From assembly GCA_016872595.1 (NCBI GenBank), contig VGZJ01000027.1, forward strand, positions 1 through 35,215: a stretch of 35,215 nucleotides of DNA, in the 5' to 3' direction. Every line of letters starts with the position of its first letter. Position 1 is the stretch's first letter. This stretch comes from Planctomycetota bacterium. GTDB lineage: Bacteria > Planctomycetota > Planctomycetia > Gemmatales > Gemmataceae. Positions 10,629 to 29,899 of this stretch are shown here, piece by piece. A program made the position numbers and the translations under genes. The notes beneath the pieces are model-generated. The model made no database searches, was not told the origin of the DNA, and was given only the letters and a program-made list of their open reading frames with translations.

Positions 10629-10749
10629 CAGAAAAGGCAGAAGAGTTTCGACGGGATCACAAGATCAGACAGGATGAAGAGAAGGACAGTTCACTACTTC
10701 TCATCCTGTATCATCTTGTGATCCCGTCGAAACTCTTCTGCCTGTTCTG
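10629..10749. terminator. 48-bp imperfect palindrome between convergent genes
   Basis: Positions 10629-10676 pair with 10702-10749 with three mismatches in 48 bp; 30 consecutive bases pair perfectly from 10636. The loop is 25 nt. The left arm includes GGCAGAAGAGTTTCGACGGG and then ATCAC. It fills the gap between the plus-strand stop at 10621 and the minus-strand stop at 10753, so it can end both transcripts. It is unusually AT-rich for this genome and shares blocks (GGCAGAA, CGGGATCAC, CAGGAT) with the palindrome at 29750-29899. Confidence 0.7.
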
Positions 10750-10752
10750 CCC

Positions 10753-12372
10753 TTACCGCACCCGTTCGTACATGACCGCGCGCTTGCCGCGGGCGACCTC
10801 GCGCCAAGTCTCCTTCGCGCCGCTCAGGTAGCGCTCGATGGGCGGCTTCTCCTGCTCCGGCGGGTTCGTCATCACAATCGCGCGCTCGAACTTGTAGTGC
10901 TTGGCCCACGTCTCGAACACCGGGCCGAGGCGCTCCGGCGGCAGGCCCATCGCGTCGGAATAGTCCTTGATCCAGTCGTCGCCGTACAACTCGCAGCGGT
11001 CGTCCATGAAGATTTTCAGGTTCGGCGTGTGGTAGATCAGGTAGCCGCCGAGGTTGGCATCGTTGAAGATCGGCGTGCCCGGCGGGACGCTGGCCGCGTA
11101 CGCCCGTACTTCCTTCTCGATGTCGGACGGGATGAAGTCCGGGTCGAGCCGTGCCCAGCCGTGGCCGATCACCGGCACACCCACTTTGTGCGCTTGCAGC
11201 TTGAACGACACCGCAACCAGCAGCACAGGCACCAGCAGCGCGGCCCAGACCGGCCGCGCGCGCCGCGCGACTTCGGCGGGGTCGTCGGCGTTCCACGCGG
11301 TGGAGCCGTCGCCGTGCTTCACCAACAGCCGGTGCCAGATCGTGTGCTTCCACAGGTCGGCAATGGCAACACCGGCGCACACCGCGAACAGCGGCCCTTG
11401 CCGGATGCCCTTGAAGCTCAGCGCGAACCACACCAGCGGAATGAGCCAGCTCACGCGCGGGAGTTTGGGTAACGTGCCGGCGAGCATGACGATGTAGAAC
11501 AGGCCGAGCGCGATCACGGTCAGGCCGAGCGGCGACGCCGGGTCGAGCGGCATGTGCTCGTTCACTACTTCCGGCAACACCTTCGACGCCACAATGCGCT
11601 GCCAGATGCGAATCATCTCCATGCCGTGCGGGTTCACAAACGGCGTCAGTCCGCACGCCGCAACGATGCCGACGAGGAGGAAGGCCGTGCGCCACGACGT
11701 GATGGGCGAGCGGGGGGTGTAAGCCCCCTGTTCTCTGTCTGCGCCTTCTCGAACAGGGGGCTTACGCCACCCGCTCGCCAAGAAGAGGATTCCCCACCCT
11801 GCGACCGCGAGGCCCAGCGTCATCGTGCCGCCGAGGACGCCACCGTGCAGGTTCACCCAGAGGACGTACAGCGGGATCAACCCGGCGAGCCGCCACGCGG
11901 TGGCGCGGCCGCGCTCGAAGTCGATCACGCACATCATCGTCCAGCCGAGGAACCCGATGGTGAACATGTGCGGGCGCACGAAATAGTGGAACGCGCCGAC
12001 GAACAGTACGCCGCCCACGATCGCGCCCGCGAGCATTGGCCCCATGCCGCCCTGCACGCACCGGCGGAAAATGAGCGTGTACAGCAGCGCGACGCCCGTG
12101 GCGAAGCCGAGGAGCATCGCGTCGAGGCCGCCGGCGCGGTGCGTGAGCGCCATCAGCACTTCCGCGCCCCACTGCTGCGGCACCCACCGCTGCCCTTCAA
12201 ACGTGTAGCTGAACGGGTCCGTCTGCGGGATGCCGCGGTCGAGGATGATCTCGCCCACCTTGACGTGCCACAGCGCGCCGGGGTCGTAGAACCCGCGGTC
12301 GCGGAACGCGACCATCAGGCCCAACAGGGTGAGAACGAAGAAGGCCGTTTCGGGCCGGAACATCCGGTTCAT
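10753..12372 (-). CDS. Polytopic membrane protein, GT-C glycosyltransferase-like
   Basis: 539 residues from ATG at 12372 (MNRMFRP; a second ATG is three codons later). About ten to eleven hydrophobic helices lie between residues 10 and 400, followed by a soluble C-terminal domain (about 410-539) with 'GTPIFNDANLGGYLIYHTP' and 'KIFMDDRCELYGDDWIKDY'. The N-terminal loop 'YDPGALWHVKVGEIILDRGIPQTDPFSYTF', followed by W63 and W68 (given here in pieces: D30, H36, DPFSYT 52-57), is typical of large bacterial GT-C-fold membrane proteins that use lipid-linked sugars, though no catalytic assignment is possible. Residues about 198-223 are encoded by a 75-nt palindromic repeat (11705-11779) that keeps the frame, in a loop between two membrane helices. 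It stands alone, divergent from the gene at 12449. Confidence 0.75.
   Translation of the reverse strand: MNRMFRPETAFFVLTLLGLMVAFRDRGFYDPGALWHVKVGEIILDRGIPQTDPFSYTFEGQRWVPQQWGAEVLMALTHRAGGLDAMLLGFATGVALLYTLIFRRCVQGGMGPMLAGAIVGGVLFVGAFHYFVRPHMFTIGFLGWTMMCVIDFERGRATAWRLAGLIPLYVLWVNLHGGVLGGTMTLGLAVAGWGILFLASGWRKPPVREGADREQGAYTPRSPITSWRTAFLLVGIVAACGLTPFVNPHGMEMIRIWQRIVASKVLPEVVNEHMPLDPASPLGLTVIALGLFYIVMLAGTLPKLPRVSWLIPLVWFALSFKGIRQGPLFAVCAGVAIADLWKHTIWHRLLVKHGDGSTAWNADDPAEVARRARPVWAALLVPVLLVAVSFKLQAHKVGVPVIGHGWARLDPDFIPSDIEKEVRAYAASVPPGTPIFNDANLGGYLIYHTPNLKIFMDDRCELYGDDWIKDYSDAMGLPPERLGPVFETWAKHYKFERAIVMTNPPEQEKPPIERYLSGAKETWREVARGKRAVMYERVR
11705..11779. repeat. Palindromic repeat inserted in frame in a coding sequence
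   Basis: Positions 11705-11733 pair with 11751-11779 (29 bp, two mismatches) around a 17-nt loop. The total is 75 nt, an exact multiple of three, lying inside the membrane-protein gene on the minus strand and adding about 25 residues with no stop (SGWRKPPVREGADREQGAY and following). On the minus strand the arm begins GGCGAGCGGGTGGCGTAAGC, which resembles the arm of the intergenic palindrome at 23836 (GCGAGCGG, then GGCGTnAGCCC). It looks like a mobile palindromic element of the REP/RPE type. Confidence 0.65.
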
Positions 12373-14412: not shown

Positions 14413-14540
14413 GCCTGAATCGTAGTCCTCACGCTCCGCGTGAGGACCGCTGGCGTAAGCGCGATGGGAGAGGGCAAGCACACCCAAGAACCGTGTACCC
14501 CAGCAGTCCTCACGCGGAGCGTGAGGACTACGATTCAGGC
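14413..14540. terminator. 41-bp nested palindrome between convergent genes
   Basis: Positions 14413-14453 pair with 14500-14540 with a single mismatch. Each arm also contains its own hairpin (CTCACGC-TCC-GCGTGAG), so either one long stem or two short stems can form. The middle of about 46 nt is unpaired. It fills the gap between the esterase stop (14409) and the minus-strand stop at 14543. A bidirectional terminator is likely; the doubled stem suggests a mobile repeat origin. Confidence 0.65.
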
Positions 14541-23835: not shown

Positions 23836-23936
23836 GCGAGCGGCGCGGCGTCAGCCCGCCGGTAGTTTCACAACTGAGAGGCGCTCGACGCGCCTGAGTT
23901 GTGTCGCTACCGGCGGGCTGACGCCGCGCCGCTCGC
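23836..23936. repeat. Near-perfect 100-nt palindrome between genes
   Basis: The 30 bases from 23836 pair perfectly with the 30 ending at 23936 (arm begins GCGAGCGGCGCGGCGTCAGC), and pairing continues with bulges through CACAACT and GGCGC toward a small loop near 23886-23890. It occupies most of the gap between the start of the LRR gene (23802) and the end of the TIGR04222 gene (23946), both on the minus strand. It can serve as terminator for the upstream transcript. Its arm resembles the in-gene element at 11705. Confidence 0.65.
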
Positions 23937-25477: not shown

Positions 25478-25531
25478 AAGAATTGGCCCGCTGATGACGC
25501 CGAAGTCTGCGCCATCAGCGGGCCAATTCTT
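25478..25531. terminator. Terminator hairpin downstream of rplT
   Basis: Positions 25478-25500 pair with 25509-25531 over 23 bp with one mismatch (arm AAGAATTGGCCCGCTGATG, then ACGC) around an 8-nt loop. Read in the direction of rplT (minus strand), the stem is followed by TTCTTTGCTTTC, a T-rich run that fits intrinsic termination 20 nt after the rplT stop. Confidence 0.75.
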
Positions 25532-29749: not shown

Positions 29750-29899
29750 GCTCTCGCAAAGGCGCGAGGACGCAAAAGAAGACAAGAGAAGGCAGAAAAC
29801 AGTTCACGGGATCACCGGCAGGATTGCCCGCCGGCTGTCTGTTGAACCGTATTCTGCCTTCTCTTGTCTTCCTTTGCGGCCTCCCGCCTTTGCGAGAGC
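29750..29899. terminator. 56-bp imperfect palindrome between convergent genes
   Basis: Positions 29750-29805 pair with 29844-29899 with five mismatches in 56 bp; the outer arm begins GCTCTCGCAAAGGCG. The centre holds a second small stem (CCGGC/GCCGG). It fills the gap between the transferase stop (29743) and the minus-strand stop at 29910. It is AT-richer than the genes around it and shares GGCAGAA, CGGGATCAC and CAGGAT blocks with the palindrome at 10629-10749, so both belong to one family. Confidence 0.68.

Follow-up and report, generated by a model that had tools for sequence, protein, structure and literature searches.

REPINs have been defined as extragenic doublets of REP sequences (Bertels and Rainey 2011, PMC3116915). 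REPs tagged with GTAG or CGTC are found within genes as well, where monomers and dimers in open reading frames add 20-30 residues; uvrA of Opitutus terrae holds two of them, recB of two Xanthomonas species carries different REPs at about the same site, and REPs supply stop codons to flanking reading frames (Di Nocera et al. 2013, PMC3733652). The same 2013 study reports REPs from Planctomycetes (PMC3733652). The RPEs of Rickettsia, an obligate intracellular host, are palindromic repeats of about 150 bp that have entered unrelated genes without breaking the reading frame (Ogata 2000 and 2002, as cited in PMC10969869) and that have a CGTC end (PMC3733652). The RPE passages of PMC10969869 name no linked transposase.

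The window analysed here is the whole stretch of 35,215 nucleotides, and the Gemmataceae genome containing it, which its relatives place near Gemmata, is called G000. A first-pass annotation, made from the sequence alone, had pointed out a palindrome within a membrane protein gene of the window and read it as a mobile repeat inserted in frame. The observation is correct and its interpretation as a mobile repeat is largely supported. We consider it highly probable that this palindrome is a REPIN which landed in frame in a tolerant loop, one that has been refilled repeatedly across Gemmataceae; its most likely mover is a RAYT acting in trans. The features referred to below are:

10756..12372, minus strand: host gene, encoding a 539-aa multi-pass membrane protein of GT-C fold, with the insert between predicted helices 180-199 and 227-241.
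11705..11779, minus strand: REPIN-like element in frame, 75 nt or 25 codons, recognised by its hairpin, its dispersed family and the gap or different repeat in orthologs; the minus strand reads GGCGAGCGGGTGGCGTAAGCCCCCTGTTC, a 17-nt spacer and GAACAGGGGGCTTACACCCCCCGCTCGCC.
11705..11733, plus strand: REP arm 1, a GGCGAGC foot followed by a small hairpin.
11734..11750, no strand: variable spacer, 17 nt here and 9-38 nt in most paired copies.
11751..11779, minus strand: REP arm 2, inverted; the minus strand reads GGCGAGCGGGTGGC-GTAA-GCCCCC-TGTTC.
23836..23936, plus strand: second REPIN of the window, from the sister family GCGAGCGGCGCGGCGTCAGCCCGCCGGTAG, near-perfect, 101 nt, z -16.0; its family flanks a RAYT at G000:C241.

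The two arms of the palindrome are 29 nt each with 27 positions pairing (93% complementary). Folded as single-stranded DNA, the palindrome reaches -31.8 kcal/mol, whereas shuffled sequences average -13.0 (z = -8.97) and none of 200 shuffles was as good. Counted in codons, the element extends from base three of codon 198 through base two of codon 223, and the gene stays open across it, which agrees with the 25 added codons without a stop described earlier. The small hairpin within the arm is imperfect in the window copy, unlike the GGGGGC-GTAA-GCCCCC found in family copies.

The host protein was modelled with AlphaFold2 using 22 orthologs, resulting in a mean pLDDT of 90. In the model the helix 180-199 is followed by coil through residue 226 and by the helix 227-241, and residues 205-218 are the sole stretch of at least three residues with pLDDT below 50. 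The insert is therefore predicted to lie in a loop between membrane helices, as had been proposed. The best Foldseek matches among solved structures are the GT-C enzymes OST/STT3, DPY19, ArnT and PglB, bearing out the label 'GT-C-like'. No Pfam or NCBIfam family matched the protein and PDB sequence searches gave no family name either; one other member of the alignment had a weak TrbC match. Another strong palindrome, at 10629-10749, lies directly downstream of the gene, and further ones of other families are found in the window at 29750-29899, 14413-14540, 2940-2995 and 25478-25531.

A 106-nt probe gave 80 BLAST matches on both strands of G000. In 689 kb of this genome, made up of stretches around probe matches and of sequence from elsewhere, the 77 arm matches form 26 inverted pairs and 25 single arms in about 51 places. 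The consensus of the family is GGCGAGCGGGGGGCGTAAGCCCCCTGTTC, a spacer and then the inverted copy, and each arm has its small hairpin after GGCGAGC. Spacers outside the usual range occur in two pairs, near 190 nt. The anatomy is that of a REPIN: a REP arm and its inverted copy enclose a short variable spacer and together give one long hairpin, the arm itself is an imperfect palindrome, and the copies are many, dispersed and mostly extragenic. An unpaired GTAG or CGTC tag is absent from the arm end in the window family, where the arm runs GGCGAGC...TGTTC, and the GGCGARC ends of the element agree with neither published tag. CCGGTAG is present at the inner end of the sister family flanking a RAYT in G000. 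The upstream flanks are T-rich: 28 of 49 REP ends of G000 have T at -4, and 18 of 22 of G016 have it at -1. Several called genes of G000 (in L041, L047, L056, L065, L040, L049 and L052) end exactly 18 nt inside a REP, the stop codon being the TAA of the REP itself (GGC GAG CGG GGG GCG TAA).

Terminal inverted repeats and small size are also what a MITE of a classical DDE insertion sequence would have. This candidate was rejected since no target-site duplication was seen by eye in the listed flanks of the G000 copies; moreover, each arm forms a hairpin of its own, closed by a GTAA-type loop, and RAYT genes are flanked by sister families, leaving the DDE origin a very small probability.

Of the 19 genomes of the genus, 16 have Y1_Tnp genes, and G010, G021 and G023 gave no match. 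Matches to the REP pattern (GGCGARC, 8 positions of any base, GTNAGNCC) number 131 in G016, 53 in G022 and 22 each in G000 and G015, compared with 5 in G010 and none in G021, G023 and G017. The three genus members without Y1_Tnp thus have 0, 0 and 5 matches versus 131 in G016, and we counted this in favour of RAYT-driven REPINs. As G017 combines Y1_Tnp with no pattern match and G010 the reverse, the correlation between RAYT and REP is loose.

None of the strongest Y1_Tnp genes (L080-L099) is flanked by the window family, several having other repeats beside them; at L098 1361-2043, for example, another RAYT has 94-nt inverted flanking arms bearing CGGGCTGAAGGCCCG repeats. The RAYTs linked to sister families rank among the weaker Y1_Tnp matches. 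The RAYT at G000:C241 (L199), 198 aa long, lies between REPINs of GCGAGCGGCGCGGCGT[CA]AGCCCGCCGGTAG, the family to which the second window palindrome belongs. This protein scores above the cut-off for Y1_Tnp and below that for REP_Tyr_transpos (42.6 bits versus 80). At G014:C403 (L202) the RAYT is flanked on both sides by the family of the loop insert of G014 itself, the arm of which matches 76 nt before (96.6%) and 86 nt after (93%) the gene. At G012:C1 (L204) both flanks carry the family seen in the G015 and G044 loops. A RAYT beside the exact family of the window was not found, the linked RAYT of G000 having the sister family (GCGAGCGGCGCGGCG..GTAG). As read from sequence, the RAYT link is direct for the sister families, and for the window family we infer it. 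The likeness to REPIN/RAYT systems (PMC3116915) includes the inverted REP doublet, the variable spacer, the long hairpin, the many copies and the flanked RAYT genes, here flanked by sister families; the differences are the GGCGARC arms and the copies lying in frame within conserved genes.

Orthologs of the GT-C gene were found in 71 of 95 genomes of the family. The loop is short in G013 (FLVRRPTPI), G087 (FLARRESPI), G018, G045 and G046, with a length of 8 residues in the close relatives G013 and G087. A REPIN of the GGCGARC type occupies it in G000, G014, G026, G012, G089, G015, G022 and G044, and a degenerate one in G092. It is filled by AAGTC-type repeats in G011, G024 and G088, by long palindromes in G010 and G017 and by other sequence in G023 and G021. 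Residues of about 198-223 are a gap in some orthologs and a different sequence in others, and the outcome that would have marked an ordinary loop, i.e. the same 25 residues encoded by diverged DNA in distant genera, was looked for among the orthologs and not seen. All hairpins with arms of at least 20 nt in the GT-C orthologs sit in this loop, which makes up 6% of the length.

A maximum-likelihood gene tree was built from the protein with the loop left out. On it, the REPIN state needs 8 changes, and supported branches force 7 of these. Sister pairs differ: G089 is filled and G087 empty, G012 has a REPIN and G010 a long palindrome, and G000 and G014, with proteins 90% identical, carry different REP families at the same junction.

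Seven loop inserts were concatenated and used as a probe in ten genomes; no more than 40 candidates were scored in each genome, all match counts being lower bounds. Among the matches listed, nearly all in G015 and most in G022 fall on the insert of the genome's own species, those in G012 and G026 fall on the G026 type, and in G014 copies of other insert types are present too. The probe had zero matches in G023, the loop of which has no palindrome. Judged by these matches, the loop inserts correspond to repeat families abundant in their own species.

That the segment is an ordinary variable loop with a chance or structural palindrome, such as an mRNA hairpin, has almost no probability left. The length of the loop does vary in every lineage, but the dispersed copies of a multi-copy family contradict this reading and together with the z-score reject a chance palindrome, the repeat families are species-specific, and the short or differently filled orthologs reject an ordinary loop conserved in distant genera. 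A functional loop, in which selection maintains a long, basic, proline-rich segment and the repeats are mere raw material, would account for filled loops being mostly 23-39 residues long and rich in R, P and G. We regard it as improbable because the close relatives G013 and G087 have the short form given above, the loop sequence is unconserved and the same repeats invade unrelated enzymes.

These other enzymes were identified in G000 using a simple home-made gene caller based on codon usage; for G022 and G015 the codon table of G000 was used. The G000 sequence covered amounts to 1,076 kb and was partly picked by repeat matches, a choice that distorts density more than it does the share of copies inside genes. 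Its 151 hairpins of any family (arms of at least 20 nt) comprise 9 intragenic, 28 gene-edge and 114 intergenic ones, despite 88% of the sequence being called coding. In-frame copies were found in UvrA, SMC, chorismate synthase, farnesyl-diphosphate (FPP) synthase, an MnmE-like GTPase, a PfaA-like ketosynthase and an ABC ATPase. The UvrA gene of 2353 aa (L061 194-7255) has three in-frame inserts, two of them REPs and the third a longer palindrome, and the SMC gene carries two single REP arms. The way the test is built places every intragenic copy in an open frame, so the retention of frame rests on homology. Alignment with orthologs from four genus members placed the in-gene inserts in variable stretches, and one relative or more lacks most of them or has something different there; the MnmE-like gene was aligned with a single relative, which likewise has a REPIN. 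The arm recurs at many places of the genome, mostly extragenic, and the copies inside conserved genes stay in frame. Together with the gap in GT-C orthologs, these are the three checks proposed in the first-pass annotation, and all of them favour its reading. A separate long palindrome family, translated like PPTPFPKREGG...LLGKGVGGLG, is also in frame (L045 10680-10785, L047 15059-15168, L061 5100-5209). In L202 (G014:C403), near 810-860, an in-frame REP arm (AQGAYAPRS) is located close to the start of a reading frame resembling, by eye, 2-oxoglutarate dehydrogenase E1.

The FPP-synthase loop was compared in 18 genus members (L045 13313-13336 and the orthologs L238-L255). This loop is a second hot spot: G014 and G016 have a full REPIN there and G000 has a single REP, long palindromes occupy it in G013, G017, G018 and G024 and other repeats in G015, G020 and G026, and it is short in G019 and G011.

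Junctions bear on how the loops came to be refilled. The clean REPIN loops of the GT-C gene in 8 species start at CT-GGCGARC (GTGAGC in G044) and end in TCGCC (TCACC in G089) before an Ile codon, which is not expected from free random insertion. Identical junctions make in-place replacement possible at this loop: one ancestral REPIN would have had its arms swapped later for those of the active family, by gene conversion or template switching at the common GGCGARC ends, with occasional loss. The ends common to different families and the sisters G000 and G014, with their different families at one junction, fit such turnover. However, empty loops also have GGCG...CGCC-like codons (Leu-Ala ... Ser-Pro-Ile), so the host sequence could fix the junction, and at the FPP-synthase loop the junctions of G000, G014 and G016 are unlike, a difference expected of fresh insertion and one that favours separate events at that loop. 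We think in-place turnover somewhat unlikely. A wider proposal, that certain protein loops of Gemmataceae are standing docking sites where an active REP family replaces the earlier occupant in place, is offered as speculation of slightly lower probability still; if true, the loop sequences of essential enzymes would be rewritten in step with the mobile elements of the genome.

The reading that we prefer, a REPIN inserted in frame and probably mobilised by a RAYT, suggests the following course of events. The REPIN, two inverted REP arms with a short spacer, would be a non-autonomous mobile element; its mover in trans is most likely a RAYT, an HUH tyrosine transposase of the IS200/IS605 kind, acting on single-stranded DNA hairpins, and for the window family this role is a presumed one. 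RAYT action would have spread the REPINs and led to insertion into that stretch of the GT-C gene which encodes the short, disordered loop joining two membrane helices. The element's length and frame give 25 stop-free codons, such that the protein would have stayed functional and the insert been tolerated; the 25 residues are presumably translated and near-neutral for the protein. Copies in genes would mostly be purged, the survivors being those in frame, free of stops and in flexible loops. In this view the GT-C loop is a landing site that across Gemmataceae has several times gained, lost or regained an insert, be it a REPIN or another repeat.

Compared with the GTAG/CGTC REPs (PMC3733652), the intragenic position, the uvrA target, the recurrence at the same site and the stop codons are alike. 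Unlike them, the window family is without either end tag, and the turnover here concerns two genes in many species with empty sites placed on a gene tree. The resemblance to Rickettsia RPEs first suggested for this element holds for behaviour, i.e. in-frame insertion in unrelated protein genes. It does not hold for anatomy, the 75-nt element having neither the length of about 150 bp nor the CGTC end of RPEs and instead the anatomy of a REPIN linked to RAYTs. Intragenic REPs and Rickettsia RPEs have already been published; what is new here is that the arms are of the GGCGARC kind and that turnover recurs at a single loop in many species. No report of loop turnover of this kind in Gemmata was found in the open-access literature searched, and descriptions of one loop being turned over again and again are scarce.

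The earlier suggestion that a mobile repeat could be a source of new protein segments is supported by the dispersed family, the empty and refilled loops and the in-frame copies in other genes. Together these loops document, over many species, how a mobile repeat makes and remakes segments of proteins. The hosts are not reduced endosymbionts and the targets are housekeeping enzymes (UvrA, SMC, chorismate synthase, FPP synthase). The coexistence of empty, half, filled and swapped states in close relatives makes an old question directly testable, namely whether inserts of this kind are neutral passengers or the raw material of new functions. Furthermore, repeat-derived loops can pass for lineage-specific domains in these proteins.
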